Below are positions 45,502 through 64,000 of a stretch of 64,000 bases of DNA, in pieces. The stretch is from Roseibium sediminis (GTDB taxonomy: Bacteria; Pseudomonadota; Alphaproteobacteria; Rhizobiales; Stappiaceae). Numbering within the stretch: the stretch's first letter is position 1; every line of letters starts with the position of its first letter. A program made the position numbers and the translations under genes. Below the pieces are notes generated by a model. It searched no databases and was not told where the DNA came from. It was given only the letters and a program-made list of their open reading frames with translations. The stretch lies in assembly GCF_008711325.1 (NCBI RefSeq), contig NZ_VXDB01000007.1, positions 1 to 64,000 of the forward strand, in the 5' to 3' direction.

Positions 45502-45924
45502 ATGACGATAGACGACATCAAGGCCAAATATCCGGGCGCCCAGACCTTCACCTTTGGTGATAGCAAAGAGCTTTGCGACGAGCTTGTCTCCCTCGTTCGC
45601 TCCGGAAAAAAGACGGCCAGCTGCGGCGCCTTGCAGGAATTCACCTCGACCGACACACCGATGCCCATAGTCGGGCGACGGGACATTTCCCTCAACTGGG
45701 ACGGCACACCAGCCTTCGTGATGGAGACCGTCGAGGTGACTATTCGCCGCTTTTGCGAGGTGGATGCAGACTTCGCGCTGGCCGAAGGGGAAAACGAAAC
45801 CCTCGAAGCGTGGCAGGCCGGTCATCGGGCCTATTTCGAGCGCAATGGTGGCTTCAGCGAAGACATGGAACTGATTTGCGAGCGGTTCAAACTGATTGAA
45901 GACCTGCAGCAGGGAGCAGCATAA
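45502..45924 (+). CDS. ASCH domain protein embedded in the mcc operon
   Basis: 140 residues, start ATG 45502, five bases after mccB; its stop codon TAA overlaps the ATG of mccA (TAATG at 45922-45926). The ASCH fold is recognised from SGKKTASCGALQEF and RRDISLNWDGTPAFVMETVEVTIRRF ... DFALAEGENETLEAWQAGHRAYF. ASCH proteins are PUA-like RNA-binding or small-molecule hydrolase (amidohydrolase YqfB-type) domains. No role in leucine breakdown is known; tight packing means it is co-translated with mccA and mccB. Cytosolic. Confidence 0.85.
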   Translation: MTIDDIKAKYPGAQTFTFGDSKELCDELVSLVRSGKKTASCGALQEFTSTDTPMPIVGRRDISLNWDGTPAFVMETVEVTIRRFCEVDADFALAEGENETLEAWQAGHRAYFERNGGFSEDMELICERFKLIEDLQQGAA

Positions 45925-47918: not shown

Positions 47919-49545
47919 CGCGGGCACTTATGGCGAGCTGATCGGACAGTTCAAATGGACTTTTCCCGAGAAGTTCAACATCGGGACAGCCATTTGTGAT
48001 GACTGGGCAGAGCGGGATCCTGACCGGGAAGCCCTCATTTACGCCGAAGAAGACGGCCCCGTCACAAGGCTGACTTATGGCGATCTGAAAGAAAAATCGA
48101 ACCGACTTGCCAATCTTCTGGCAAGTCGGGGCATTGCGCCGGGCGACCGGGTTGGCGTCTTGATGCCCCAGCGTCCCGAAACCGCCTTTACACACATTGC
48201 GGCCCTCAAGATGGGCGCGATTACCATCCCGCTCTTCACCCTGTTTGGCGAAGAGGCGTTGCTTTATCGCCTGCAGAACTCCAGCGCCAAGGCCGTTGTC
48301 ACGGACGCAGCAGGCGCCCGGAAAATCGCTGCCCTGCGCGGCGAGTTGCCGGACCTCAAAGTCGTGTTGTGCGCTGACGGCGCCCGCGACAGCGCGGAAG
48401 ACCTCCACGTGGCCATGAGTAACGCGCCGGTAGAGTTCACACCGGTCGAAACGCGCGCGGATGATCCCGCAATCATCATCTACACATCCGGGACAACCGG
48501 CCAGCCGAAGGGGGCGCTGCACGCTCACCGGGTTCTGCTGGGCCACCTTCCCGGCGTCGAGATGAGCCACGACTTTCTCGGCCAACCCGGTGATCGTATC
48601 TGGACCCCGGCGGATTGGGCCTGGATCGGCGGCTTGCTGGATGTCTTGATGCCAGCGCTTTATCTCGGTGTTCCTGTCGTCGCCTGCCGATTCAAAAAAT
48701 TTACCGCGGAAGCGGCTTTCCAGCTGCTGCAGGATCAGAAGATCCGCAACACGTTCCTGCCGCCAACCGCGCTGAAAATGATGCGGCAAGTGGACAATCC
48801 GCAAGAGCGCTGGTCGCTGGACCTGCGGTCCGTTGCTTCTGGCGGCGAGACCCTTGGCGCAGAGCTGATCAGTTGGGGCCGCAAGACCTTCGGCCTGACA
48901 ATCAATGAGTTCTATGGCCAGACCGAGTGCAACATGATCGTTTCCAGCTGCGCGAAGATCATGGAGGGTCGGCCCGGCATCATGGGCCGCGCTGCTCCCG
49001 GACATACGCTTGCAATCGTCGACGACAAGGGTGTCGAACTGCCCAGAGGCGAACAAGGAAACATCGCCGTCAAACGCCCCGACCCGGTTATGTTCCTTGG
49101 CTATTGGAACAACGAGGACGCAACGGCGAGGAAATTCGCGGGCGACTGGCTTTTGACCGGTGATACCGGTGTGATGGACGATGACGGTTGGATCCGCTTT
49201 GTCGGGCGCGATGACGATGTCATCACGTCCTCCGGTTATCGCATCGGTCCGGGGGAAATCGAAGACTGCCTCCTGAAACACCCTGCCGTCGCCATGGCGG
49301 GCGTGGTGGGCAAGCCTGATCCCCAGCGCACGGAAATCGTGAAAGCCTATGTCGTCTTGAAACAGGGGCATGAGGCGAGCGAACCCCTGGAGCGGGAAAT
49401 TGCCGAGTTTGTGAAAACGCGGCTCGCCGCCCACGAATACCCGCGCGAAGTTGCATTCGTTGATGCCCTTCCCATGACCACGACTGGCAAGGTGATCCGC
49501 CGCGAACTGCGCGCCCGTGCTGCTGAAGAAAAGAAAGCCGACTAA
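47902..49545 (+). CDS. AMP-forming acyl-CoA synthetase
   Basis: 547 residues. ANL superfamily with the AMP motif IIYTSGTTGQPKG (about 190-203), FYGQTECNMI, the hinge GRDDDVITSSGYRIGPGEIE and the catalytic Lys in TTTGKVIRREL. The length and motifs are like medium-chain/acetyl-CoA-type synthetases. In this operon it could activate isovalerate, methylcrotonate or acetoacetate; the acid is not determined. ATG 47902 lies within the 3' end of mccA, a 17-base overlap, so translation is coupled. Confidence 0.88.
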   Translation: MRLLPDAGTYGELIGQFKWTFPEKFNIGTAICDDWAERDPDREALIYAEEDGPVTRLTYGDLKEKSNRLANLLASRGIAPGDRVGVLMPQRPETAFTHIAALKMGAITIPLFTLFGEEALLYRLQNSSAKAVVTDAAGARKIAALRGELPDLKVVLCADGARDSAEDLHVAMSNAPVEFTPVETRADDPAIIIYTSGTTGQPKGALHAHRVLLGHLPGVEMSHDFLGQPGDRIWTPADWAWIGGLLDVLMPALYLGVPVVACRFKKFTAEAAFQLLQDQKIRNTFLPPTALKMMRQVDNPQERWSLDLRSVASGGETLGAELISWGRKTFGLTINEFYGQTECNMIVSSCAKIMEGRPGIMGRAAPGHTLAIVDDKGVELPRGEQGNIAVKRPDPVMFLGYWNNEDATARKFAGDWLLTGDTGVMDDDGWIRFVGRDDDVITSSGYRIGPGEIEDCLLKHPAVAMAGVVGKPDPQRTEIVKAYVVLKQGHEASEPLEREIAEFVKTRLAAHEYPREVAFVDALPMTTTGKVIRRELRARAAEEKKAD

Positions 49546-49547
49546 CC

Positions 49548-50408
49548 ATGTCCGATTTTGTCACGATTTTTGAGATGGGTCCGCGCGACGGCCTGCAGAA
49601 CGAGAAGGTTTTCGTTCCGACCGAAGACAAGATCAGATTGGTGGATCGACTGTCGGACTGCGGCTTTCGCAAGATCGAGGTGACCAGTTTCGTAAGCCCG
49701 AAATGGGTGCCCCAGATGGCCGACGCGACCGAGGTCATGGAAGGCATCTACCGCCACCCCGCAATTTGCTATGCGGTCCTGACCCCGAACGTGAAGGGTT
49801 ACACCGCTGCCCGCAAGGTGTCAGCGGACGAAGTGGCTGTCTTTGGCTCTGCCTCAGAAGGGTTTTCGAAGAAGAACATCAATTGCTCGATCGACGAGAG
49901 CATTGAGCGATTCAAGCCCTTGATCGACAAGGCGCGCCACGACGAGCTTGCCGTGCGCGGCTATGTGTCCTGTGTCACGGACTGTCCCTATGACGGCCCC
50001 ACCGACCCGGCGGAAGTCGCCCGCGTGGCAGGGATCATGTATCGGCTCGGCTGTTACGAAATCTCGCTCGGTGACACGATTGGGGCAGGAACGCCGGAAA
50101 CCATTGCCCGTATGCTGGATGCTGTCCTGAATGAAGTTCCGGCAGACAAGCTGGCCGGTCACTATCACGACACCAAGGGCCGCGCGCTGGAGAATATCGA
50201 GGTCAGCCTCGAAAAGGGGCTCAGAACCTTTGATGCCGCGGTCGGCGGCCTTGGAGGGTGCCCGTATGCACCGGGCGCCAAGGGCAATGTAGCAACGGAA
50301 GCCGTTGCCGGCCTTTTGACCTCAAAAGGGTTTGAAACCGGCATTGACCTGGAGAAACTGACAAGTGTCGCCGCCTTTGCGCGGTCCTTGCGGAGTGACA
50401 GCGCATGA
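49548..50408 (+). CDS. mvaB: Hydroxymethylglutaryl-CoA lyase
   Basis: 286 residues (also called liuE). TIM barrel with the FEMGPRDGLQNEK start, metal-binding His residues in AGHYHDTKG, and the catalytic Cys in GLGGCPYAPGAKGNVATE. It splits HMG-CoA to acetoacetate and acetyl-CoA, the last step of leucine breakdown. Start ATG 49548, two bases after the synthetase stop; overlaps the next gene by four bases (ATGA). Confidence 0.95.
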   Translation: MSDFVTIFEMGPRDGLQNEKVFVPTEDKIRLVDRLSDCGFRKIEVTSFVSPKWVPQMADATEVMEGIYRHPAICYAVLTPNVKGYTAARKVSADEVAVFGSASEGFSKKNINCSIDESIERFKPLIDKARHDELAVRGYVSCVTDCPYDGPTDPAEVARVAGIMYRLGCYEISLGDTIGAGTPETIARMLDAVLNEVPADKLAGHYHDTKGRALENIEVSLEKGLRTFDAAVGGLGGCPYAPGAKGNVATEAVAGLLTSKGFETGIDLEKLTSVAAFARSLRSDSA

Positions 50409-51190
50409 GCTTTGAAACGATCACGTTGACCACGGACGACCGCGGCGTTGCGCTCTTGTCGCTCAACCGGCCCGAAAAACACAACTCCCTCTCCGCTCGG
50501 ATGATCAATGAGCTGACGGTTGCGGCGGGACAAATCAATGCCGACACAACCATCCGCGCGGTGGTGCTGACCGGAACCGGCGAGAGCTTTTGCGCTGGGG
50601 GAGACCTTGGCTGGATGCGCGAACAGTTCCACGCGGATCGCGAAACCCGCATGTCGGAAGCTCGCAAGTTGGCGATGATGCTTCGCGCACTCAATGAGCT
50701 TGAAAAGCCGCTGATCGGCCGGGTGCAGGGTCAGGCCTTTGGCGGCGGCATTGGCATGATGAGCGTTTGCGATACAGTGGTCGCAGTCGATGCGGCGAAA
50801 TTCGGCCTGACGGAAGTGCGCCTTGGGCTCATTCCGGCGACCATCAGCCCTTATGTTCTGGCCCGCATGGGCGAAGGCAAGGCACGGCGCGTCTTCATGT
50901 CGGCGCGGATTTTCGGCGCAGAAGAAGCGCGGGAACTTGATCTGGTGGCAAAGGTTGTTTCAGCAACAGAGCTTGACGAAGCCATCGAGCGGGAAATCAA
51001 GCCCTATCTCGGCGCGGCGCCTGCCGCAGTTGCAGCTTCCAAGGCCCTGGCGCGTTCCCTGGGCCCGACGATCTCGGACGCAGTGATCGACGACACGATC
51101 CGGCGGCTGGCCGACACATGGGAAACACCGGAGGCCCGGGAAGGCATTTCGGCGTTCTTCGACAAGCGCAAACCGAACTGGGTGAAGTGA
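50405..51190 (+). CDS. liuC: Enoyl-CoA hydratase, probable methylglutaconyl-CoA hydratase
   Basis: 261 residues. Crotonase fold with oxyanion segments TGESFCAGGDLGWMREQ and VQGQAFGGGIGMMSVCDTVVAV, and the TEVRLGLIPATISPYV motif. In this operon it should hydrate 3-methylglutaconyl-CoA to HMG-CoA, the substrate of the preceding gene. Specificity comes from the context. It is the last gene of the operon. Confidence 0.9.
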   Translation: MSFETITLTTDDRGVALLSLNRPEKHNSLSARMINELTVAAGQINADTTIRAVVLTGTGESFCAGGDLGWMREQFHADRETRMSEARKLAMMLRALNELEKPLIGRVQGQAFGGGIGMMSVCDTVVAVDAAKFGLTEVRLGLIPATISPYVLARMGEGKARRVFMSARIFGAEEARELDLVAKVVSATELDEAIEREIKPYLGAAPAAVAASKALARSLGPTISDAVIDDTIRRLADTWETPEAREGISAFFDKRKPNWVK

Positions 51191-52968: not shown

Positions 52969-53355
52969 ATGCATGCTGACATCAATGGGCGAAACAGCAC
53001 CTTTCTGCGAGCCACGCTTCTTGCCGCCTTCTGCGCGCTTGGCCTTTCCGGCGCATCTGCCGAAGACCTGAAGCCTGCCTATAACGACTATCCAACAGAA
53101 GCGCGCGCCGACTATGTATTCGGCTGCATGGTATCCAACGGACAAAGCCGGGATGTGCTGCGCCGCTGCTCCTGCTCAATTGACGTGATCGCTTCAATCA
53201 TCCCCTATGACAAATACGTTGAGGCAGAGACGGTTCTCTCGCTTCAGCTGGTGGGCGGTGAGCGCATGTCCATCTTCAGAACCGCTGCAACGACAAAATC
53301 CATCGTGGCAGACTTGCGCCGCGCACAGGCGGAAGCCGACATTCTCTGTTTCTGA
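52969..53355 (+). CDS. Small exported cysteine-containing protein
   Basis: 128 residues. A signal peptide (RATLLAAFCALGLSGASAE, cleavage near residue 31) precedes a 97-residue mature domain with four cysteines: YVFGCMVSNG, RRCSCSIDVI and the C-terminal DILCF. It could carry two disulfides or a metal. Family not recognised. It starts directly after the upstream exported protein gene and is convergent with the SoxYZ-like gene. Proteins of this size with CxC motifs are found near PQQ-dehydrogenase genes, but that link is inferred from the location here. Confidence 0.72.
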   Translation: MHADINGRNSTFLRATLLAAFCALGLSGASAEDLKPAYNDYPTEARADYVFGCMVSNGQSRDVLRRCSCSIDVIASIIPYDKYVEAETVLSLQLVGGERMSIFRTAATTKSIVADLRRAQAEADILCF

Positions 53356-53468: not shown

Positions 53469-54344
53469 TCAACTGGCAGAACTGTCTTTCGGGATCACCT
53501 CTTGCCAGACATTGCCGTCCGTATCTTCGGCAATGATGGTGAAGGTCTCGGAACCATCATCATTATAGGCAAACCGGAATACCGGATTTTCAGACAGCGA
53601 AATGCCACCATCGACCGTGAACAGGGTTTCATCCCCCTGCTTGACCTCGATGTGGCTGACAAAATGGGCAGCAATGAAAAGCTGAGTCACCTGATCCCGC
53701 TGCAGGCCGGAATAGTTGGGGTGGCGGATCATGACCTGCGCCTCGCGCCTCTGGCTCACCCCTTCCGTTCTCGGGGTCAATGTCTTCGCACGGATCTGCC
53801 CCATGGTCGACAAGGCAAGCTCGGGGTCCTTGGTGGCAGGCGCAGAACACCCGCCAGACGCCTTTACATAGCGTCCGCTCATGACCGCTCCAGTATCCGT
53901 ATCGGCGATCAAGCGGACATTCGAATACTGGTTGACGCGGACCCGCACCTCCATATCGAGCGGATACATGGACGAGCCAAATGTCATTTCGGCCGCAAGA
54001 GGAGCCGGGTTCTCGTCAATCACCAGCTTCGCATGTTTTACAAAGGGTGCGCCCGTGGCGGGTTGGCGGATTGTGATCGGGACTGTCGCAGCATCATGCG
54101 CCCGGTATGGCGCATCAATGTCGATGATACCTTCACCGTCCGCGGGCGTGACGTCACCAATGATGTCAGTGCGAAGATCACTCCAGCTTCCCTCGTCAAT
54201 CAGGGGATTGGGGCGCGTGTCAGCGGCCCTTACGGGCTCCGGCATCACAAAGCCTCCTGCTGCTACTGCGCTGAAAAGAGCAACGGCCGTGCAGGTCGCA
54301 AGGCCTGATAAACCGGATCTGAACCTGCTGTTTTGAAACATCAT
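53469..54344 (-). CDS. Quinoprotein dehydrogenase-associated SoxYZ-like carrier (first copy)
   Basis: 291 residues. A long signal sequence (GLSGLATCTAVALFSAVAAGGFVM) precedes a SoxY-like domain (DIDAPYRAHDAATVPITI, DENPAPLAAEMTFG, Cys166 in GGCSAPATKDPELAL) and a SoxZ-like domain (RHPNYSGLQRDQVTQLFIAAHFVSHIEVKQGDETLFTVDGGISLSENPVFRF). The classical SoxY C-terminal GGCGG arm is missing; the single conserved Cys sits between the two domains. Role in quinoprotein systems unproven. ATG ATG at 54344/54341 follows GGAGG. A second copy occurs at 62521-63351. Confidence 0.88.
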   Translation of the reverse strand: MMFQNSRFRSGLSGLATCTAVALFSAVAAGGFVMPEPVRAADTRPNPLIDEGSWSDLRTDIIGDVTPADGEGIIDIDAPYRAHDAATVPITIRQPATGAPFVKHAKLVIDENPAPLAAEMTFGSSMYPLDMEVRVRVNQYSNVRLIADTDTGAVMSGRYVKASGGCSAPATKDPELALSTMGQIRAKTLTPRTEGVSQRREAQVMIRHPNYSGLQRDQVTQLFIAAHFVSHIEVKQGDETLFTVDGGISLSENPVFRFAYNDDGSETFTIIAEDTDGNVWQEVIPKDSSAS

Positions 54345-54624
54345 TTCCCCTCCAATCGCGCCGACCATGTATAAAAATGGCCTCACGCCACCGCACTGCA
54401 GCATATACTTCTGCAGCAACTGTGACGCTTCGTATTCAGGCAAGCTTTGTTGTTCAAACAACAAACTACACGACGCCTTGATTTGAGAGAAATAAATATT
54501 CCGTTACGATATTTATAACAATGGATCCAATGGTAGCGATTGCTTCTCCACCCAGGTCGGAGAACTATTTGAATGAAATCGAATATTCTCTCTTCATCAC
54601 TGACAGAAAAGCTAACCGCGACAG
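54345..54624. promoter_or_regulatory. Divergent control region with two palindromes
   Basis: Between the SoxYZ-like gene (left) and the metallo-hydrolase gene (right). TTGTTGTT-CA-AACAACAA at 54447-54464 is an 18-base perfect palindrome, and ATAAATAT (54492-54499) / ATATTTAT (54509-54516) with a nine-base loop is a second. CTGCAG also occurs twice (near 54393-54418). The region is AT-rich. The palindromes are candidate binding sites for a regulator of the methanol oxidation genes; none was identified in the window. Confidence 0.5.
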
Positions 54625-55668
54625 ATGTTTGAAATCGTTGTAACCCTGTGCCTGCTCAACTCGCCCGACACGTGCCGGGTTCAGTTGCTGGCAGGCGAGC
54701 AGCATCAAAGCAAGGCTCTCTGCGAAGCGGCCTTGAAGGGCGCGGCCCTGTTACAGGGCACCCTCGCAGAAAAACGTCTGATCGCCCCGCAAGCCCCGTT
54801 TTGCAGATCAGCAGGGCCTGGCCTCGCGCTTTCAAAGGTCTCTGACGGAGTCTTTGTCGCCAAAGGCCTGATTGAAGAACCCTCTGCCAGCAATAAAGGA
54901 AACGTTTCCAACATTGGCGTCGTCATTGGAGAGACTTCGATCGCAGTCATAGACAGTGGTGGCTCCCGGGCCATTGGTGAGGACCTTTACCGGGCCGTAA
55001 CGTCGCTCAGTCCCCTTCCGGTCAGCCACGTCATCCTGACCCACATGCACCCTGATCACGTTTTCGGTGCCAGTGTTTTTGCAGAAAGCGGCGCCCGGAT
55101 CGTCGGACACCCCAATCTGCAGCGAGCCCTGCAGGACAGGCAGGAAGCCTATCTGGCAGGGTTTTCAGATCTTATCGGAAACCCCGGCTTCATCGGGACC
55201 AGCATACCATCCATAGAATCGGCAGAGCCGGTCATCGATCTTGGAGGCCGGAGGCTTACCCTCACTTTCTGGCCGAATGCTCATACGGCGACAGATGTCA
55301 CCGTCTTCGACGAAAAGTCCTCAACGTTTTTCAGCGGTGACCTCGTCTTCCATGACCATGCCCCTGCGCTCGACGGCTCGCTCAAGGGTTGGCAGACCGT
55401 CCTCGCCAACATTCAAAAAACCGCAAATATTCAAAATCTGGTTCCCGGACACGGAGGTCCGGTGCTGAGCGTTTCAGAGGGAACCAATCCGTTGCAGCAC
55501 TATCTGGAGGTCCTTGAGACGGACACACGCACAGCGCTGAAACACGGCGAGCGGATCGGTGACGCCGTCGAACACATCGGGCGATCCGAGGCCGACAAGT
55601 GGGCCCTGTTTGAGCTGTTCAACACCCGAAACGCCACGGTCGCCTATACCGAACTGGAATGGGAATAG
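54625..55668 (+). CDS. Quinoprotein relay system zinc metallo-hydrolase
   Basis: 347 residues. A short N-terminal domain (1-70) with Cys9, Cys17, Cys33 and Cys60 is followed by a metallo-beta-lactamase fold with the zinc motif THMHPDHVFG (His140, His142, Asp144, His145) and the later ligands in FFSGDLVFHDHAPALDGS and LVPGHGGPV. It belongs to the SoxH-like group found with PQQ dehydrogenases. No upstream in-frame start exists (stops are nearby) and no signal peptide is clear. Function unproven; a thiol-ester or persulfide on the SoxYZ-like carrier is a possible substrate. Confidence 0.85.
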   Translation: MFEIVVTLCLLNSPDTCRVQLLAGEQHQSKALCEAALKGAALLQGTLAEKRLIAPQAPFCRSAGPGLALSKVSDGVFVAKGLIEEPSASNKGNVSNIGVVIGETSIAVIDSGGSRAIGEDLYRAVTSLSPLPVSHVILTHMHPDHVFGASVFAESGARIVGHPNLQRALQDRQEAYLAGFSDLIGNPGFIGTSIPSIESAEPVIDLGGRRLTLTFWPNAHTATDVTVFDEKSSTFFSGDLVFHDHAPALDGSLKGWQTVLANIQKTANIQNLVPGHGGPVLSVSEGTNPLQHYLEVLETDTRTALKHGERIGDAVEHIGRSEADKWALFELFNTRNATVAYTELEWE

Positions 55669-55669
55669 G

Positions 55670-56305
55670 CTATTTCTGTACGCCTGCCTTCATCAGGATC
55701 TGGGCAATCCCGTAGAGCCGCTTTTCAATGAGCACCGGGGTTTCGCAGACATACGTCAAGGACCGGGACCGCTCCTGATAGATGCGCTCTTCCCAGTCCA
55801 ACTGTTCTTCCAGCTTGTCGATCTTGTCATAGTCGGGCGCGCTGTCGGAAAGGAGCTTGTCCATTTCCGCGCGAATACCATCGATCTTTTCTGCCAGGGC
55901 AATCTGCTTCAGGGAATATCGTTCGATGCCCTTGATGATCTTGTGTCGCTTGGCGCCCAGTTCGTTGAAGATCCGTTCGAACACCTGTTCATAGACGGCC
56001 TCGGTTAAATCTGGATGCTCTGCTGCAAACCCGGCAACGAGACCTTCTACGTCTTCCAGCGACAGTCGGCGCAAGGCAAGTTGCTCAATAAGGCCTTCTG
56101 TCTCCGGGCCAAGTTCAACACCCTTTGACCCACCATTTTCAACCGGGCTGCTCCACATCAGACCCAGAGACAGGCTCTCCACCTTCCTCTGCACGCAAGG
56201 CCAAGTCGGGTCATTGAAAACCGCCGCAAACGCAGGAGTTCCTCCAACCGCCGCACCAACCATGGCTGCGACACCAAGCAGAGCCGAAAAATGACGAGAC
56301 TTCAT
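55670..56305 (-). CDS. Exported coiled-coil protein of unknown function
   Basis: 211 residues. Signal peptide MKSRHFSALLGVAAMVGAAVGGTPAFA, then a mature domain starting VFNDPTWPCVQRKVESLSLGLMWSSP. The rest is mainly helical with heptad-like Glu/Lys/Leu patterns (IRAEMDKLLSDSAPDYDKIDKLEEQLDWEERIYQERSRSL). Two cysteines remain in the mature protein (Cys in WPC and near the C-terminus in YVCETP), which could form a disulfide. I do not recognise the family. It converges on the metallo-hydrolase gene with one base between the stops, and is divergent from the class III ADH gene, in the middle of the C1 island. Confidence 0.75.
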   Translation of the reverse strand: MKSRHFSALLGVAAMVGAAVGGTPAFAAVFNDPTWPCVQRKVESLSLGLMWSSPVENGGSKGVELGPETEGLIEQLALRRLSLEDVEGLVAGFAAEHPDLTEAVYEQVFERIFNELGAKRHKIIKGIERYSLKQIALAEKIDGIRAEMDKLLSDSAPDYDKIDKLEEQLDWEERIYQERSRSLTYVCETPVLIEKRLYGIAQILMKAGVQK

Positions 56306-56476
56306 GACCTTATCCTCCCTAGGGGAAGGGTAATCATAAGGCCAGTTTTGTCCACGTCAAAAAACACAAACTAAGGTCTCGATTGTTCGGGTATGACCTG
56401 AATTTATAGTTCGGTATAAGCCACAAGAAGAACCTGAGGTGCATTACTCGCATCGGGAAATACGGGAAGGTATTTT

Positions 56477-57589
56477 ATGCGTACGAGAGCGGCAGTAGCA
56501 GTTGGAGCTGGAAAACCTCTTGAAGTCATGGAGGTTAATCTTGAAGGCCCAAAGGCATTCGAAGTGCTGGTCGAAATGAAGGCTACCGGCATCTGCCACA
56601 CTGACGAATTCACGCTCTCCGGCGCTGACCCGGAAGGATTGTTCCCCGCCATTCTCGGCCATGAAGGTGCCGGCGTGGTTGTCGAAGTGGGACCCGGTGT
56701 TACGACACTGAAGCCGGGCGATCACGTTATTCCGCTCTATACGCCCGAGTGCCGCACCTGCGAATACTGCCTCAATCCGAAGACCAACCTGTGCCAGCGC
56801 ATCCGCGCCACACAGGGTCAGGGCCTGATGCCGGACGGCTCGTCCCGGTTCACCACGCTCGATGGTGACCCGATCCTGCACTATATGGGCTGCTCCACCT
56901 TCGCCAACCACACGGTTGTGCCGGAAATCGCCCTTGCCAAGATCAACCCTGACGCACCGTTCGACAAGGTTTGCTACATCGGCTGCGGCGTCACCACCGG
57001 CATTGGCGCCGTGATCAACACGGCCAAGGTCGAAATCGGTTCAAGGGCCATTGTTTTCGGACTCGGCGGCATTGGCCTGAACGTCATTCAGGGCCTTCGT
57101 CTTGCTGGCGCTGACCAGATTGTCGGCGTTGACCTGAACCCGGCCAAGGTGGAGATGGCGACCCGCTTCGGCATGACCGACTTCGTCAATCCGAAAGAGG
57201 TTGAGGGCGACCTCGTTGCCCATCTGGTGAACCTGACCAAGGGCGGCGCAGACTACACGTTCGACGCGACCGGCAATGTGAATGTCATGCGGACCGCCCT
57301 TGAAGCAGCCCACAAGGGCTGGGGCGAGAGCATCATCATCGGCGTTGCTCCGGCGGGCGCTGAAATCTCGACCCGTCCGTTCCAGTTGGTCACCGGCCGC
57401 TCCTGGCGCGGCACCGCCTTTGGCGGCGCGCGTGGGCGAACCGATGTTCCGAAAATCGTCGACTGGTACATGCAGGGCAAGATCGAAATCGATCCGATGA
57501 TCACCCACACCATGCCTCTTGAGGACATCAACAAGGCTTTTGATCTCATGCATTCGGGCGAATCCATCCGATCCGTCGTCATTTATTGA
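56477..57589 (+). CDS. S-(hydroxymethyl)glutathione dehydrogenase (class III alcohol dehydrogenase)
   Basis: 370 residues. Zinc alcohol dehydrogenase with catalytic-zinc Cys in [19 protein letters not shown], structural zinc cysteines [15 protein letters not shown], and the NAD fold [12 protein letters not shown]. Class III length and the TWGESIII-type region ([15 protein letters not shown]) support glutathione-dependent formaldehyde oxidation: S-hydroxymethylglutathione to S-formylglutathione. GGGAAGG precedes ATG 56477. The next gene hydrolyses the product, and xoxF downstream supplies formaldehyde. Confidence 0.95.
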
Positions 57590-57600
57590 GGACGGGCGAG

Positions 57601-58458
57601 ATGGAGCTCCTGTCCGAAAACCGGTGTTTTGAAGGCGTGCAATCCGTCTATCGCCACAAGTCGGAAGCCTGTTCGTGCGACATGACCTTTGCGGTCTATA
57701 TGCCGCCGCAGGCAGAAGACGGGCCGGTCCCGTGCCTGTGGTACCTGTCGGGCCTGACCTGCACCCACGAAAACGCCATGACGAAGGCCGGACTTCAGGC
57801 CCACGCCGCCGAGTTTGGTCTCGCAGTGGTGTTTCCCGATACCAGCCCGCGGGGCGAGAACGTTGCCAATGACGAAGCCTACGACCTTGGGCAAGGTGCG
57901 GGCTTCTACGTCAATTCAACCAAGTCTCCATGGGCACCGCATTTTCGGATGTATGACTATGTTGTCACCGAACTTCGGGGCCTGCTGGTCGAACGCCTGC
58001 CTCTGTCCGGACAGCACGGGATCACCGGCCATTCCATGGGCGGACACGGCGCATTGACGATCGCCCTGTCCAATCCCGACCGCTATCATTCGGTGTCGGC
58101 CTTTGCACCGATTGCAAACCCGAGTGCAAGCGACTGGGGGCGCAAGCAGCTTGGGGCCTATCTGGGGGACGACGAGGCTGCATGGGCAGCTCATGATTCC
58201 ACAATCCTGCTGCGTGAACGCGGCTGGAAGCGGGACATCCTCATCGATCAGGGTGGAAGCGACCAGTTTCTGGATCTGCTGAAACCGGAAGCTTTGGCCA
58301 GCGCTCTGGCTGAAACCCGCACTGCCTGCGACTTCCGCATGCAGAAGGGCTACGACCACTCATACTACTTCGTTTCCACATTCGCCCGTGACCATGTCGC
58401 ATGGCACGCAGAGCGTCTCTACGCCCACTACGGCGAAACGGAAAACAGCGCGGGTTAA
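57601..58458 (+). CDS. fghA: S-formylglutathione hydrolase
   Basis: 285 residues. Esterase D family with nucleophile elbow GHSMGGHG (Ser145), SRYHSVSAFAPIANP, catalytic acid in LIDQGGSDQFLD and His in GYDHSYYF. It releases formate and glutathione from S-formylglutathione. ATG 57601 is the family start, eleven bases after the dehydrogenase stop with GAGGACG between. The stop codon lies inside an 18-base perfect palindrome. Confidence 0.95.
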   Translation: MELLSENRCFEGVQSVYRHKSEACSCDMTFAVYMPPQAEDGPVPCLWYLSGLTCTHENAMTKAGLQAHAAEFGLAVVFPDTSPRGENVANDEAYDLGQGAGFYVNSTKSPWAPHFRMYDYVVTELRGLLVERLPLSGQHGITGHSMGGHGALTIALSNPDRYHSVSAFAPIANPSASDWGRKQLGAYLGDDEAAWAAHDSTILLRERGWKRDILIDQGGSDQFLDLLKPEALASALAETRTACDFRMQKGYDHSYYFVSTFARDHVAWHAERLYAHYGETENSAG

Positions 58459-58465
58459 CCCGCGC
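58448..58465. other. Palindrome overlapping the fghA stop codon
   Basis: GCGCGGGTTAACCCGCGC, perfect 18-base palindrome, contains the TAA stop (58456-58458). No T-tract follows. It could be a weak terminator, an RNA-stability hairpin at the end of the formaldehyde genes, or a protein site. Confidence 0.45.
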
Positions 58466-58655
58466 GCGGAAGTGGCAACACTCCCGCACACAGGGAGCGG
58501 CCAAGGGTTTGCCGCCCCGAGCAAGAAAGCAAAGGAGCCAAGGGGAGGAAGAAAACTTCAAGCTAGTGACCTGACCGGGAACCCCGGAGCGAGGAGGCTC
58601 GGGGACAAACACCTGACCAGGTTTGTCTTAGTCGCAACATGCTAAGGAGGAGAGC
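58459..58655 (+). promoter_or_regulatory. xoxF leader with strong ribosome binding site
   Basis: A 197-base gap before xoxF, purine-rich in its middle (aaaggagccaaggggaggaagaaa). TAAGGAGG at 58643-58650, complementary to the 16S rRNA 3' end, lies five bases before ATG 58656, the best ribosome site seen in this window and consistent with an abundant enzyme. Inverted repeats CCGGG/CCCGG and ACCTG/CAGGT occur just upstream. No clear sigma-70 promoter was found, so a regulator-dependent promoter is likely. Confidence 0.55.
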
Positions 58656-60455
58656 ATGAGAAGACTGTTAATCGCAGCTTCGGCCTTCGCGTTGACCGCC
58701 GGCCTGGCGCACGCCGATGCCAATCTGCAATCAATGATGGATGACGCCAATCAGTGGGTTATCCAGACTGGGGACTACAAGAACCAGCGCTATTCCAAGC
58801 TTGACCAGATCAACAAGGACAACGTGAAGAACCTCCAGGTAGCCTGGACTTTCTCGACCGGTGTTCTGCGTGGTCACGAAGGGTCTCCGCTGGTGGTGGG
58901 CGACGTGATGTATGTGCACACGCCGTTCCCGAACATCGTTTATGCCCTCGACCTGAACAACGACGGCAAGATCATCTGGAAGTACGAGCCCAAGCAGGAC
59001 CCGAACGTCATTCCGGTGATGTGCTGTGACACCGTCAACCGCGGTGTGGCCTATGCTGATGGCAAGATCTTGCTGCACCAGGCAGACACCAAGGTCGTTG
59101 CACTTGATGCAAAGACCGGGGCTGAAGTCTGGAGCGTTACGAATGGCGATCCGGGCATTGGCGAAACCAACACGGCGACCGTCATGCCGGTTGGCGACAA
59201 GGTCATTGTCGGTATCTCCGGTGGTGAGTTCGGTGTTCGCGGTTCGGTAACCGCCTACAACATCAAGGATGGTTCTCAGGCATGGCGTGCCTATTCCATG
59301 GGTCCGGACAGCGACATCCTCGTTGACCCGGAAAAGACCACCCATCTCGGCAAGCCGGTTGGCGTTGACTCAGGCACCAACACCTGGGAAGGCGACCAGT
59401 GGAAGATCGGCGGCGGCACCACCTGGGGCTGGTATTCCTATGACGCGGAAGAAAACCTGATCTATTACGGAACAGGCAACCCTTCCACATGGAACCCGGC
59501 ACAGCGTCCTGGTGACAACCGTTGGTCCATGACCGTGATGGCCCGTGATGCCGACACAGGCATGGCTCGCTGGTTCTACCAGATGACCCCGCACGACGAA
59601 TGGGACTACGACGGGATCAACGAAATGATCCTGACGGAGCAGGAAATTGACGGCAAGACCCGCAAGCTCCTGACCCACTTCGACCGTAACGGCTTCGGCT
59701 ACACGCTAGACCGCGTATCTGGCGAGCTGATCACCGCGGAAAAGTATGACCCGACGGTTAACTGGGCAACTCATGTCGAAATGGACAAGAACTCCGACCA
59801 GTACGGACGTCCGCAGGTCGTGGCACAATACTCCACCGAACATAACGGTGAAGACGTGAACTCGACCGGCATCTGCCCGGCGGCTCTTGGTTCCAAGGAC
59901 CAGCAGCCTGCAGCCTACTCGCCGACAACCGGCCTGTTCTATGTCCCGACAAACCACGTTTGCATGGACTACGAACCGTTCCGCGTCAGCTACACGGCTG
60001 GTCAGCCTTATGTAGGTGCGACCCTGTCCATGTACCCGGCTCCGAACAGCCATGGCGGCATGGGTAACTTCATTGCCTGGGACAACATCAAGGGCGAAAT
60101 CGTCTGGTCCATTCCGGAGCAGTTCTCCGTATGGTCCGGTGCTCTGGCAACTGCTGGCGACATCGTCTTCTACGGCACGCTTGAAGGCTACCTGAAGGCC
60201 GTCAACATGGCGACGGGTGAAGAACTCTACAAGTTCAAGACCCCGTCCGGCATCATCGGCAACGTGATGACCTACGCTCATGGCGGCAAGCAGTATGTCG
60301 CAGTGCTCTCGGGCGTTGGCGGTTGGGCCGGTATCGGTCTGGCAGCTGGCCTGACAAACCCGAACGACGGTCTGGGTGCCGTGGGTGGTTACGCCGCCCT
60401 CAGCGACTACACCGCACTCGGTGGTCAGCTGACTGTCTTCAGCCTGCCGAACTAA
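58656..60455 (+). CDS. xoxF: Lanthanide-dependent PQQ methanol dehydrogenase XoxF
   Basis: 599 residues with a 20-residue signal peptide. Eight-bladed quinoprotein propeller; the vicinal disulfide CysCys at 123-124 ([10 protein letters not shown]) and tryptophan docking motifs are visible. The catalytic Asp317 is followed two residues later by Asp319 ([11 protein letters not shown]). This second Asp marks lanthanide-binding XoxF; calcium MxaF enzymes have Ala. It oxidises methanol (and perhaps other alcohols) to formaldehyde or formate in the periplasm. xoxG and xoxJ follow. No mxaF or mxaI occurs in the window. Confidence 0.96.
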
Positions 60456-60473
60456 GGCTGTTTGCTTCACAGG

Positions 60474-60499
60474 AACCGGCGCGCCTGCGCGCCGGTTCA
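60474..60499 (+). other. Intercistronic hairpin between xoxF and xoxG
   Basis: GAACCGGCGCG (60474-60484), loop CCTG, CGCGCCGGTTC (60489-60499), an 11-bp perfect GC-rich stem with no T-tract. Such hairpins stabilise the upstream mRNA or reduce read-through, which would let XoxF accumulate above XoxG and XoxJ. Confidence 0.7.
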
Positions 60500-60553
60500 T
60501 CCAAACGATCGGCAAGAACAATGACCGACGAAGCAACTTCCCAGGGAGAAACA

Positions 60554-61087
60554 ATGCGTAATTTCAAAGTACTCTGCGCGGCATTCCTCGTGACGAGCGG
60601 CATCCATATCAGCCAGGCTGGCGCAGAATCCACCGTTGATCCTGCATTGATCGAAGCTGCTTATTCCGAAAACGGCAAATACTTTACGGCCGACGACATT
60701 CCCACCTACAAGGTACAGGAAGACGGCACGATCGATTGGCCATCCTATTCCGGCTTCCGCCGCTATCACTCCGAATGCCACGTCTGTCATGGCCCGGAAG
60801 GCGAAGGGTCCACCTATGCCCCTGCGCTCAAGAAATCGGCGCTTACAATGGACTACTACGACTTCATTGATGTAGTGACCAACGGACGCACGCGCATCAA
60901 CGCAGCAGAAAATTCCGTCATGCCGGCCTTCGGCGACAACCCGAATGTCATGTGCTACCTCAACGACATCTATGTCTACGTGAAGGCACGTGGCACAGAC
61001 GCAGTCCCGCGCGGTCGTCCGCGCAAGAAGGAGGCGAAGACTGACGCCATCCGGGAAGAAGAAAATGCTTGCCTTGGCACAAACTAG
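60554..61087 (+). CDS. xoxG: Cytochrome cL-type XoxG, electron acceptor of XoxF
   Basis: 177 residues. Signal peptide MRNFKVLCAAFLVTSGIHISQAGA, then a single-haem class I cytochrome c with haem site CHVCHG (Cys75, Cys78, His79) and Met ligand in AENSVMPAFGDN. It takes electrons from XoxF and delivers them to the oxidase chain. ATG 60554 with AGGGAGA upstream is preferred; the frame is open to a far-upstream start without similarity. The end overlaps xoxJ by 23 bases. Confidence 0.92.
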   Translation: MRNFKVLCAAFLVTSGIHISQAGAESTVDPALIEAAYSENGKYFTADDIPTYKVQEDGTIDWPSYSGFRRYHSECHVCHGPEGEGSTYAPALKKSALTMDYYDFIDVVTNGRTRINAAENSVMPAFGDNPNVMCYLNDIYVYVKARGTDAVPRGRPRKKEAKTDAIREEENACLGTN

Positions 61088-61931
61088 CCTGTTGCGGCAG
61101 GTTATGGTCTGGGCCGCTATGGCCCTGACTTTCGTTCTAGGCATGTATGGCACAAACGTGCAGGCCCAGACCTCAGACCTCGTCTCGAAAAACGCCCTGA
61201 GGGTATGCGCAGATCCGGCCAATCTTCCGATGTCCGCCATGGACGGCGCCGGATACGAGAACAAGCTCGCGAACCTTGTTGCATCGAAACTGGACCTGCC
61301 GGTCAGCTACACCTGGTATCCCATGGCAACCGGCTTCATCCGCAACACGCTGAAGGCCAACAAGTGCGACATCGTGATGGGATACGCCCAAGGTCACGAA
61401 CTGGTCCTCAACACCAATCACTACATGACCTCCGGCTACACGATCATCGTGCCGAAGGATGGAGACCTTGCCGATGTAACGGCCTTGTCGGACCAGCAGC
61501 TGAAAGGCAAGCATATCGGGATCATTGCTGGCTCCCCGCCGGCAACCCACATGGCCCGCAATGGACTGATCGGAAAGGCCAAGCCCTATCACCTTGTCGT
61601 TGATCGCCGCTTTGAATCTCCGGCAGTCGACATGCTGAAAGATCTGAAAGCCGGTGAAATCGACGCCGCCATCCTGTGGGGCCCCCTGGGCGGCCCGCTG
61701 GCAAAGGCGGACTATCCGGATTTCAAGGTCATTCCCCTCTTGAAGGAAACGCTCCCGCCGCGCCTGTTCTACCGGATCACCATGGGGGTCAGGCAGGGAG
61801 AAAACACGTGGAAACGGAAGCTCAACTCGCTCATCCGCCGAAATAAAGATGAGATCGACGCCATTCTCATTGATGCAGGCGTTCCGCTCCTGAATGATAC
61901 CGGTGACGCCCTGTATCAACCGGGCGGCTGA
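61065..61931 (+). CDS. xoxJ: XoxJ, periplasmic binding-protein-like accessory protein
   Basis: 288 residues. Signal peptide (VMVWAAMALTFVLGMYGTNVQAQ), then a family 3 solute-binding fold (LRVCADPANLPMSAMDGAGYENKLANLVASKLDLPVSYTWYP ... ITMGVRQGENTWKRKLNSLIRRNKDEIDAILIDAGVPLL). In related bacteria XoxJ binds or helps activate XoxF; no transport is implied. ATG 61065 lies within the end of xoxG, so the two are coupled. Confidence 0.9.
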   Translation: MLALAQTSLLRQVMVWAAMALTFVLGMYGTNVQAQTSDLVSKNALRVCADPANLPMSAMDGAGYENKLANLVASKLDLPVSYTWYPMATGFIRNTLKANKCDIVMGYAQGHELVLNTNHYMTSGYTIIVPKDGDLADVTALSDQQLKGKHIGIIAGSPPATHMARNGLIGKAKPYHLVVDRRFESPAVDMLKDLKAGEIDAAILWGPLGGPLAKADYPDFKVIPLLKETLPPRLFYRITMGVRQGENTWKRKLNSLIRRNKDEIDAILIDAGVPLLNDTGDALYQPGG

Positions 61932-61935
61932 CATC

Positions 61936-62517
61936 ATGTCCAAGGCATGCACTCATCCAAAGTCCGCCCCGTTTCTCGTTACCCTTTTTGTGGTCGCCGC
62001 CACATGTATTGGGGGCAACTCGCTCAAGGCGCAGGTCCCAGAGCCGGATGGCTATCGGGAAGACCCTTACCGGGGTGAAGTTCCACAAACCCTGAAGGGC
62101 GGCACGGTTGTTTCCAGCGAAGAGGCAAACGCGCTCTGGAGCGAAGGCAAGACTGCCTTTATCGACGTGTTGCCGCGACCGCCAAAGCCGAAGAACCTGC
62201 CCAAGGGCACGATCTGGCGAGAAAAGCCGCGCCACTCCATTCCCGGAAGCCTCTGGCTGCCAAATGTCGGGTACGGGCAGATTGCAGAAATCACGGCTGG
62301 ATACTTCAAGGACGGACTGAAAAAGGCAACAGGCGATGACAAGGAGCATCCGGTCCTTTTCTTCTGTCTCGAGGAATGCTGGATGTCCTGGAATGCCGCC
62401 AAACGCGCGCTCGAATACGGCTACACGACGGTCTACTGGTATCCGGAAGGCACCGACGGCTGGACATTCTACGACTATCCGCTCGAAGAGGTGAAGCCTG
62501 AACCGGAACCCTACTGA
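61936..62517 (+). CDS. PQQ-dependent catabolism-associated Cys-Trp motif protein (rhodanese-like)
   Basis: 193 residues from ATG 61936. Signal peptide (FLVTLFVVAATCIGGNSLKA), then a rhodanese-like domain with AFIDVLPRPPKPKNLP and the active loop FFCLEECWMSWNAAKRALEYG. Here the two cysteines are separated by three residues and followed by Trp. It occurs in PQQ-alcohol gene clusters, role unknown. It is four bases after xoxJ, so the operon is xoxF-xoxG-xoxJ-this gene. Convergent with the second SoxYZ-like gene. Confidence 0.87.
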   Translation: MSKACTHPKSAPFLVTLFVVAATCIGGNSLKAQVPEPDGYREDPYRGEVPQTLKGGTVVSSEEANALWSEGKTAFIDVLPRPPKPKNLPKGTIWREKPRHSIPGSLWLPNVGYGQIAEITAGYFKDGLKKATGDDKEHPVLFFCLEECWMSWNAAKRALEYGYTTVYWYPEGTDGWTFYDYPLEEVKPEPEPY

Positions 62518-62520
62518 GGA

Positions 62521-63351
62521 TCAATAATCCGCGAACTGGCGTTCGACTTCAGACACGGTTCCATCCGTATCCTGAAGTCTTGCCTTAGCGCGCCGCGTTG
62601 TGCCCGGAACAGCAAACGAAATCGTCGGATTTTCGCTCAAGGAAATGCTTCCCGTTACCTTGGCATAGGGAGCGCCGTTAAGCTCGATATCCAGCGTATC
62701 GACATAGCGTGCAGGGATGTAGAGCAGGCTGATCTGATCCATCTGCATTCCGGAATGGCTGGGATGACTGATGTCGACATCGATCTCCGTATCGGAGCCT
62801 GATGCTTCGGCAGAGTGTTGCAAAGTCTTCACGTCAACGAGGCGGCGCAGTGTCATTTCCATCTGACCCAGTGTCGCAAGAGCCTCCTCCGGATCCGTTC
62901 CGGGAGGGGCGGAACACGCACCTAACCCCGACGTCTTAACAAATCCCTCCGCCATGAAGAGCTGGCCGTTTTCCATTTCGGCAACCGCATGAACACCAGT
63001 CGGGCCATTGATCCGCATCGTAGAGGCAAAGCTGAACGCGGGCACCGGTTCAACGAACTCGAACTGCGCCGACACCGGCATCGGGTTCTCATCCAAAATC
63101 AGGGATACCCTTTTCAGCTGCTGGCCCTCTGGAGCACGAACATCAACCGAGATTTTCGTCCTTGCATCGTTCTCGGTTCTGTAAGGCGCGTCGATCGAAA
63201 CCACCTTCTGAGAAGCGCCGATATACTGCTGTCCATAAAGCTCGGACCGAAGATCAGGCCAGCTGCTTTCAGCGGCTTGACCACCGTTCGGCAGAAAAAA
63301 GCCCGATGCGCCCAAAAGGCCAGCAAAAATGAACATCATTGAACGTGGCAT
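62521..63351 (-). CDS. Quinoprotein dehydrogenase-associated SoxYZ-like carrier (second copy)
   Basis: 276 residues. Signal peptide (MMFIFAGLLGASGFFLPNGGQAA), SoxY-like part (SIDAPYRTENDARTKISVDVRAPEG, DENPMPVSAQFEF, Cys146 in GACSAPPGTDPEEAL) and SoxZ-like part (SHPSHSGMQMDQISLLYIPARYVDTLDIELNGAPYAKVTGSISLSENPTISF). Same layout as the copy at 53469-54344 but clearly diverged, so it is an old duplication or two separate acquisitions. It overlaps the end of the beta-propeller gene by 16 bases, so these two are one leftward operon. Confidence 0.88.
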   Translation of the reverse strand: MPRSMMFIFAGLLGASGFFLPNGGQAAESSWPDLRSELYGQQYIGASQKVVSIDAPYRTENDARTKISVDVRAPEGQQLKRVSLILDENPMPVSAQFEFVEPVPAFSFASTMRINGPTGVHAVAEMENGQLFMAEGFVKTSGLGACSAPPGTDPEEALATLGQMEMTLRRLVDVKTLQHSAEASGSDTEIDVDISHPSHSGMQMDQISLLYIPARYVDTLDIELNGAPYAKVTGSISLSENPTISFAVPGTTRRAKARLQDTDGTVSEVERQFADY

Positions 63352-64000
63352 GGCTGAACATCCCCGACTGTCGAATAGAGAAACTGGCCAAAAGCGCGCG
63401 GACCGTCTCCGGTCGGCACTTCTGCAAGAACATCATGGCTGATAGGGTCGATGAGGCTGATGCTGTTGGAAAACCAATTGGTTGAAACCACCATCTTGCC
63501 ATCCGGATCGCCGGCAATGCCTTCCGGGTATTCACCGACATCGACCGTATCGATTTTCCGGTAATCGGACAGGGTGTAGACGGTTACGGTGTCAGCATAC
63601 TGATCTGTTGTGAACGCCTGCCCTGCGGCAAATCCAATCCCGTAGGGCCGCGCGCCCACGGCGATGATCGCGATGACTACACCTCTCGCAGGATCGACGA
63701 CATAGACATCATCTGATCCCACATTGGCGACGTGAACAAACCCGTCCGGGCCTGCAGCAACCCCGAAAGGTCGAGTGCCAACGTCGATCCGGTGCAGCAG
63801 CTTGAGATCAGGTAGAGAGAAGACGGAAACCTGATCTGCATCGCGATCTGCAGAAACAAGAAACTCGTCGTCACCCGCAACAGCAAGCCCCGCAGGTGCG
63901 GCACCCGTCTCCAGTTCACCAACCCAGTTCAGGGTTTCGGCATCCAGGACAAAGACCCTGGAATTGTACCAGTCAGACACAAAAAGCTGACCTGTGGTCT
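63336..64000 (-). CDS. YVTN-type beta-propeller protein, N-terminus beyond the window
   Basis: The visible 221 residues are the C-terminal part of a beta-propeller of YVTN/lactonase-type repeats, with about 40-residue repeats each of pattern -V-YVVDPARG-V-AIIAVGARPYGI. The frame is open through the right edge (TTGQLFVSDWYNSRVFV...), so the start lies outside. Propellers of this kind accompany PQQ-dependent catabolism clusters, role unknown. The stop is overlapped by the downstream SoxYZ-like start. Confidence 0.85.
   Translation of the reverse strand, partial: TTGQLFVSDWYNSRVFVLDAETLNWVGELETGAAPAGLAVAGDDEFLVSADRDADQVSVFSLPDLKLLHRIDVGTRPFGVAAGPDGFVHVANVGSDDVYVVDPARGVVIAIIAVGARPYGIGFAAGQAFTTDQYADTVTVYTLSDYRKIDTVDVGEYPEGIAGDPDGKMVVSTNWFSNSISLIDPISHDVLAEVPTGDGPRAFGQFLYSTVGDVQPCHVQ

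Follow-up and report, generated by a model that had tools for sequence, protein, structure and literature searches.

Two diverged fused SoxYZ-like carriers in a XoxF methanol oxidation island of Roseibium sediminis

A 64-kb stretch at the start of a 228-kb contig of the alphaproteobacterium Roseibium sediminis (NCBI RefSeq assembly GCF_008711325.1, contig NZ_VXDB01000007.1; genome size 4.99 Mb), referred to here as the window, contains an island of methanol oxidation genes that includes a XoxF-type dehydrogenase dependent on pyrroloquinoline quinone (PQQ). Two genes of this island, designated carrier A and carrier B, each encode a single chain in which Pfam places a SoxY half before a SoxZ half, and both proteins exceed the curated cut-off of 140 bits of TIGR04557, the NCBIfam model for SoxYZ-like carriers (258 bits for A and 179.6 bits for B). 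These matches bear out the recognition of two such carriers in an earlier note, made from the sequence alone, which had also proposed that they could take part in a periplasmic thiol-based relay for an oxidation intermediate or sulfur. We describe below the distribution of these carriers, which ties them to PQQ alcohol dehydrogenases, and the conservation of the A/B pair and its gene order, which suggests that each copy has its own task in the oxidation of alcohols.

The carrier family, its trio with a hydrolase and a rhodanese-like protein, and its association with quinoproteins have all been published; a conserved A/B pair with two operons was not found in the literature searched. Passages of PMC12997753 describe the Pseudomonas putida trio PP_2666/2677/2678, its homologues META1p1703-1705 in M. 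extorquens, a result from randomly barcoded transposon sequencing (RB-TnSeq), and ideas involving disulfides and PQQ protection. In the portions of PMC11237559 consulted, SoxYZ fusion clades near PQQ alcohol dehydrogenases or xoxF are argued to serve carbon metabolism, and fused SoxYZ genes are reported from marine viruses; A and B resemble two of these clades by description, S2 and S4, whose fusions lie near PQQ alcohol dehydrogenase genes and soxH or near xoxF. An extract of PMC5934484 places soxH next to xoxF5 in a roseobacter that needs XoxF5 for methanol growth, and passages of PMC10568851, PMC11970703 and PMC6382920 mention the carrier without a test of function. The nearest published case is a mention of 'two genes encoding soxYZ fusions' in Methylophaga thiooxydans (PMC6548844, in part). 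A literature search covering titles, abstracts and selected passages found no account of two carriers flanking xoxF, and no experiment giving the function of the carrier and its hydrolase.

Two carriers with an internal cysteine arm

For carrier A, the ATG at 54344 is judged the best start, with GGAGGGG upstream, and gives 291 residues with the arm cysteine at position 166; starts set further upstream would number this residue 168 or 206. The only further cysteine of A, Cys18, lies within a signal-like N-terminus, and Cys146 is the sole cysteine of B, so that the translations agree with the single mature cysteine that the earlier note had assigned to each protein. Signal-like N-termini would place both carriers in the periplasm. 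The two proteins are 33% identical over 264 amino acids, which excludes a recent identical duplication and upholds the description of the copies as diverged. Neither reaches the cut-off of the models for true SoxY (49 bits for A and 52.6 for B, cut-off 125) or true SoxZ (53.6 and 42.3 bits, cut-off 76), and a search of PHROGs with A and B returned no family.

The two copies had also been described as lacking the usual C-terminal GGCGG arm. The GGCGG motif is indeed absent from A and from B, but the arm itself is not lost: in a profile of the two proteins, the cysteine aligns with the C-terminal GGC of SoxY in 2ox5, 2oxg and 4uwq, which indicates that the arm has shifted into the linker before the SoxZ half, where it reads GGCSAP in A and GACSAPP in B. 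The aligned column is cysteine in all 99 fused copies from the set of genomes of the order described below, in 80 of 80 relatives of B and in all 41 readable relatives of A (three of 44 end before this position). By homology, then, A and B each present one cysteine on an internal arm. AlphaFold models of the two proteins (mean predicted local distance difference test, pLDDT, 82.4 for A and 81.5 for B) find their best matches in chains of solved SoxYZ complexes, with Ig-fold proteins such as antibodies ranking lower. Mean pLDDT in the ten-residue block at the cysteine is 76 in A and 58 in B, compared with 94-98 in the preceding blocks; this low model confidence is suggestive only, and would fit a mobile segment. 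Compared with canonical SoxY and SoxZ (2ox5, 4uwq), the carriers thus share the fold of each half and the arm cysteine, but differ in forming one chain, in holding the cysteine in a linker with no free C-terminus, in scoring under both cut-offs, and in a distribution that is independent of SoxB.

Between A and B lie MBL2, a metallohydrolase head to head with A; an unnamed gene, u211; FlhA and Fgh of the glutathione-dependent formaldehyde route; XoxF; a cytochrome; XoxJ; and a rhodanese-like protein whose gene lies tail to tail with B (Table 1). The metal-ligand pattern of MBL2 (H140xH142xD144-H145, H220, D239, H276) is conserved in at least 95% of 82 aligned rows. XoxF carries the motif DEWDYDG with the lanthanide-type Asp and a vicinal CC pair, and is 81-87% identical to roseobacter XoxF proteins, three of five of which are annotated XoxF5. 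Although the family of the rhodanese-like protein is named CXXCW, its motif here is C-L-E-E-C-W, that is, C-x3-C-W, and both cysteines are present in 111 of 112 rows.

By its layout, B is the last gene of an operon, DUF3280-SRPBCC-propeller-B, that crosses the window edge: the first bases of B are shared with the end of a beta-propeller gene, this gene in turn overlaps an SRPBCC gene, and the SRPBCC gene abuts a DUF3280 gene. MxaD of methanol oxidation clusters is likewise an SRPBCC protein. Past this operon come two further genes with counterparts on contig 20, one for a periplasmic binding protein (45% identity) and one for a second beta-propeller (52%). The two carriers, which had been placed at opposite ends of the cluster, do flank the core of dehydrogenase and formaldehyde genes, but the island continues past B beyond the window. 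Elsewhere in the window, at 45924-51190 on the forward strand, a run of genes resembling by eye a biotin-dependent acyl-CoA carboxylase subunit, an AMP-forming ligase, an HMG-CoA-lyase-like gene and an enoyl-CoA hydratase was observed.

Table 1. Features of the island (window coordinates; numbering continues past 64000 for genes beyond the window edge)
Feature	Position	Strand	Basis and remarks
Carrier A, fused SoxY-SoxZ protein, 291 aa, Cys166 in SGGCSAP	53469..54344	(-)	TIGR04557 + Pfam
Codon for arm cysteine Cys166 of A	53847..53849	(-)	Computed coordinates
MBL2, 'quinoprotein relay system zinc metallohydrolase 2'	54625..55668	(+)	TIGR04559 351.9 bits, cut-off 280
FlhA, S-(hydroxymethyl)glutathione dehydrogenase	56477..57589	(+)	Pfam ADH domains; 78-85% identity to like-annotated roseobacter genes
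Fgh, S-formylglutathione hydrolase	57586..58458	(+)	Pfam esterase; 68-75% identity to genes annotated fghA
XoxF-type PQQ methanol dehydrogenase	58656..60455	(+)	TIGR03075 772.6 bits
c-type cytochrome of methanol metabolism	60554..61087	(+)	TIGR03874 248.2 bits; start picked by eye within open frame 60323-61087
XoxJ/MoxJ-like periplasmic binding protein	61065..61931	(+)	TIGR03871 290.4 bits; start picked by eye within open frame 60990-61931
Rhodanese-like protein, Cys158 + Cys162, C-x3-C-W	61894..62517	(+)	TIGR03865 233.7 bits, cut-off 128
Carrier B, fused SoxY-SoxZ protein, 276 aa, Cys146 in GLGACSAPP	62521..63351	(-)	TIGR04557 + Pfam
Codon for arm cysteine Cys146 of B	62914..62916	(-)	Computed coordinates
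Beta-propeller gene of B operon	63336..64000	(-)	Continues to 64346 outside window; 16-base overlap with B
SRPBCC gene of B operon	64300-64845		Beyond window edge
DUF3280 gene of B operon	64847-65353		Beyond window edge

A third fused carrier is encoded on contig 20 of the same genome, with a TIGR04557 score of 216.3 bits. Its neighbors are a hydrolase of the MBL1 type (TIGR04558, 419 bits), PQQ-type ABC genes, a cytochrome and a MoxJ-like protein; a second quinoprotein, with the motif EGWDFDG, lies about 10 kb away, and the whole set is covered by L006 (8299-15599) and L257 (7221-9122). In a tree of 202 proteins this copy falls in a deep separate clade. All three copies thus resemble the TIGR04557 carriers known from the ped cluster of P. 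putida in passing the cut-off, in their internal arm cysteine and in their metallohydrolase and quinoprotein neighbors. Unlike that case, two diverged carriers here share one XoxF island, and B has an arm motif and operon of its own with no adjoining hydrolase.

Distribution of the carrier among quinoprotein genomes

SoxB, PQQ alcohol dehydrogenase, MBL2, the rhodanese-like protein and the carrier were scored in the same 199 genomes of the order and were found in 71, 70, 58, 56 and 60 of them, respectively. Sixty-seven genomes passed TIGR04557, but seven (G011, G014, G016, G018, G047, G072, G184) were dropped because the match spans stops between separate soxY and soxZ genes; G009 and G140 are counted among the 70 dehydrogenase genomes on the strength of their E-values. 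Every one of the 60 carrier genomes has a PQQ alcohol dehydrogenase (p=8e-41; 59 of 60 without G140). All 58 genomes with MBL2 have a carrier, and 58 of the 60 carrier genomes have MBL2 (p=2e-48); in the other two, G141 and G168, the MBL1 type adjoins the carrier. The rhodanese-like protein is present in 55 carrier genomes (p=5e-42). SoxB, in contrast, occurs in 24 of the 60 carrier genomes and in 47 of the 139 others (p=0.42), leaving 36 carrier genomes without it. Since these genomes share descent, the p-values overstate, and it is the contrast between partners that counts.

Because the carrier tracks PQQ alcohol dehydrogenase and MBL2 and is independent of SoxB, the distribution shows that it serves quinoproteins, and that A and B serve a PQQ alcohol dehydrogenase, here XoxF, not thiosulfate oxidation. 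Homology to SoxY and SoxZ, together with separate SoxY and SoxB genes in the same genome, could be taken to assign A and B to an ordinary Sox system of thiosulfate oxidation, but with the scores below both true-Sox cut-offs, the missing GGCGG end and the many carrier genomes that lack SoxB we regard this as very improbable.

With respect to the relay suggested in the earlier note, its SoxH-like hydrolase is, at the level of whole genomes, a constant companion of the carrier, as MBL2 or, in two genomes, MBL1. The Cys-Trp rhodanese-like protein is a partner in most cases and not an obligate one, since five carrier genomes lack it above cut-off. The relay idea is therefore reasonable but unproved, and its sulfur branch gains nothing from the distribution, the presence of the carrier being independent of SoxB. 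A protective role is proposed in the passages of PMC12997753 and PMC11237559, which cite thiosulfate inhibition of methanol growth in Hyphomicrobium. In such a scheme of protection or sulfur handling, the carrier would bind sulfur nucleophiles or persulfides and so shield PQQ, with the rhodanese-like protein and MBL2 unloading it. The SoxY ancestry of the carrier and its rhodanese-like partner fit such a protective role, but the independence from SoxB and the five genomes without the rhodanese-like protein do not, and we judge it unlikely.

The genome G138 is informative for the composition of these islands, as it has XoxF, XoxJ, the cytochrome and a small four-cysteine protein, with carrier, MBL2 and rhodanese-like protein all failing to score above cut-off; these three can thus be missing together. 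The four-cysteine protein, secreted-looking and encoded in the window at 52969-53355 on the forward strand, keeps its four cysteines in 53 of 53 rows and matched no model in Pfam or NCBIfam. It occurs in 52 of the 199 genomes, 51 of which have a carrier, the remaining one being G138. It therefore seems to follow XoxF, and was rejected as a part of the relay.

The type of carrier, hydrolase and dehydrogenase also match. In the neighborhood table, which uses 96 of the 99 fused copies (a broken carrier, L129, lies outside the 99), carriers of clade C have MBL1 in 12 of 12 contexts, and the quinoprotein within 10 kb is of a non-XoxF type in all ten cases that have one, with none near in three of 13. 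For clade A carriers, MBL2 lies no more than two genes away in 40 of 70 contexts, and of the 30 copies with a quinoprotein near by, 22 have XoxF as the nearest one. Among 42 quinoproteins from the order-set loci and the window, 39 have the lanthanide-type Asp and three have Ser, and those in the loci of B relatives have Asp in 72 of 72 cases; we take Asp at this position to mark lanthanide use. For the ten dehydrogenase genomes without a carrier, nine quinoproteins were covered (all but that of G009), and five of the nine have Asp. A strict restriction of the carrier to lanthanide-type enzymes can consequently be set aside.

The vicinal CC pair, present in 42 of 42 of the same quinoproteins, bears on another explanation, that the carrier, the hydrolase and the C-x3-C-W protein form a thiol/disulfide system that makes this disulfide or helps to load PQQ and the metal. 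Such a maturation role is put forward in passages of PMC12997753, which also assign one to XoxJ-like neighbors. The CC pair is found as well in nine of nine quinoproteins from the carrier-less genomes, which weakens the idea that the carrier is required for the disulfide. Loss of a maturation factor should moreover stop formaldehyde production, but META1p1703-1705 do not figure among the 28 genes that a selection for loss of XoxF1-made formaldehyde brought out in PMC7391723, where xoxJ, pqq and ccm genes do appear. This absence speaks against an essential role in maturation and is as expected for a step after formaldehyde, although redundancy could hide such factors. We consider a maturation role doubtful, yet both it and protection from sulfur compounds remain live.

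Conservation of the A/B pair

A collection of species genomes yielded 126 stretches encoding a relative of B, the best 80 of which were used, many with neighborhoods clipped by contig ends. These relatives come mostly from roseobacters, with top matches in Roseibium species (57-66% identity); XoxF is nearby in 74 of the 80 loci and the rhodanese-like gene in 75. Among the 51 loci that reach at least 9.5 kb beyond B, A is present in 43. The eight without it stop 9,982-9,997 bases beyond B, short of the largest measured A-B distance of 10.6 kb, and A may therefore lie outside them. The six plasmid records closest to B are roseobacter replicons (51-56% identity) with two carriers in each, and A and B share one island in all five replicons examined, from Sagittula sp. 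P11, Mameliella alba, Ruegeria sp. AD91A, Salipiger abyssi and Sagittula stellata, with A and MBL2 on the opposite side of B in Salipiger. One relative of B (L183, 54% identity) stands in a record titled Enemella evansiae, an actinobacterium, and may reflect contamination or mislabelling.

Class-wide, a search with B gave hits in 28 of 385 genomes (E<=1e-20); outside this genome, the closest of them reached 41% identity. With no close relatives of B in this sample, a B-type island general to the Alphaproteobacteria was rejected. None of six other sampled genomes of the same family has a fused carrier above cut-off, and together these results fit transfer or loss.

A phylogeny of both copies, proposed in the earlier note, was computed for 202 proteins, restricted to relatives of 240-330 aa (27 of 44 for A and 76 of 80 for B). 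The A of the window sits among the relatives' A, and its B groups with all 76 relatives' B (support 0.866, on a long branch); the two thus fall into separate clades, each of which keeps its cysteine. A first tree had grouped the window's B with 13 other copies, an arrangement superseded once the 76 relatives were added, which makes those 13 the sister group (1.0). These thirteen fused carriers (L104-L112, L116, L118, L123, L125) have no quinoprotein within 10 kb in 12 cases, and some adjoin genes resembling, by eye, methylmalonyl-CoA mutase subunits or a nuclease.

Between the window and the roseobacters, A copies are 54-59% identical and B copies 51-56%, compared with 30-36% between A and B inside each of six genomes. 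Related marine bacteria thus keep a pair of old, separately conserved paralogues, and because these have different gene partners, different roles are plausible. The opposite explanation, that either copy could stand in for the other and both are retained for dosage or for separate regulation, could draw on the 26 of 60 carrier genomes in the order set with at least two fused copies (one broken copy counted), some of them with several A-type copies. Against it stand the contrast in identities and the persistence of distinct arm motifs and operons, and we find it rather unlikely.

Possible cargo of the carriers

As the best explanation for the whole, we tentatively propose a possible route, in large part inferred, in which a protein thiol on A or B holds the aldehyde made by the dehydrogenase and MBL2 hydrolyses the acyl adduct. 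The arm thiol would take up the aldehyde as a hemithioacetal; if this were oxidised to an acyl thioester, MBL2 could hydrolyse the thioester and free the thiol. Such a route would parallel, in the periplasm and with a protein thiol, the glutathione-dependent one whose genes (FlhA, Fgh) belong to this island, sharing its logic of a thiol that takes up the aldehyde, an adduct that is oxidised and a hydrolase that frees the thiol, by analogy and not by homology. Judging from gene neighborhood, A, which adjoins MBL2, may be the form that meets the hydrolase, and B, in the DUF3280-SRPBCC-propeller operon, the form that acts nearer the dehydrogenase.

This aldehyde-carrier proposal is supported by the invariant arm cysteine, the link in distribution, the matching types of carrier, hydrolase and dehydrogenase, and the different partners of A and B. 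We prefer it because MBL2 keeps the full metal-ligand pattern, because META1p1703-1705 are missing from the 28-gene list of PMC7391723, and because, in the portion of PMC6414531 consulted, formaldehyde is oxidised by the pure XoxF1 enzyme and not by extracts of the wild type, from which its authors infer a restraining mechanism. A more detailed version, in which B receives the newly made aldehyde at XoxF and passes the line on to A, with MBL2 cleaving any S-formyl form, so that over-oxidation of formaldehyde is prevented and the restraint described in PMC6414531 is accounted for, strikes us as quite improbable.

Several observations weigh against an aldehyde cargo.

We know of no adduct, substrate or mutant for these carriers. 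No quinoprotein lies within 10 kb of 42 of 72 A-type copies, ten of the 70 dehydrogenase genomes have no carrier, and the Mameliella island lacks MBL2. Models of subclass B1 beta-lactamases score higher on MBL2 (57.7 bits) than does glyoxalase II (21.5 bits), both far under cut-off; a glyoxalase-like assignment was accordingly dropped, and thioester hydrolysis by MBL2 is a guess, which lowers the odds of the proposal. Disrupting the P. putida homologues made very little difference on short-chain alcohols when rare earths were absent, according to a passage of PMC12997753, and an extract of PMC7356819 states that in M. aquaticum 22A formaldehyde can be oxidised in vivo by XoxF1 or ExaF.

Many PQQ alcohol dehydrogenases, most of them of the lanthanide type in the loci examined, occur together with the carrier and its hydrolase. 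With the carrier tied to quinoproteins and MBL2 never found without a carrier in the 199 genomes, and with paired carriers in many marine alphaproteobacteria, the 'relay system' label becomes testable. If the cargo is indeed an aldehyde, the carriers would account for the control that cells exert over formaldehyde in the periplasm while methanol is oxidised.

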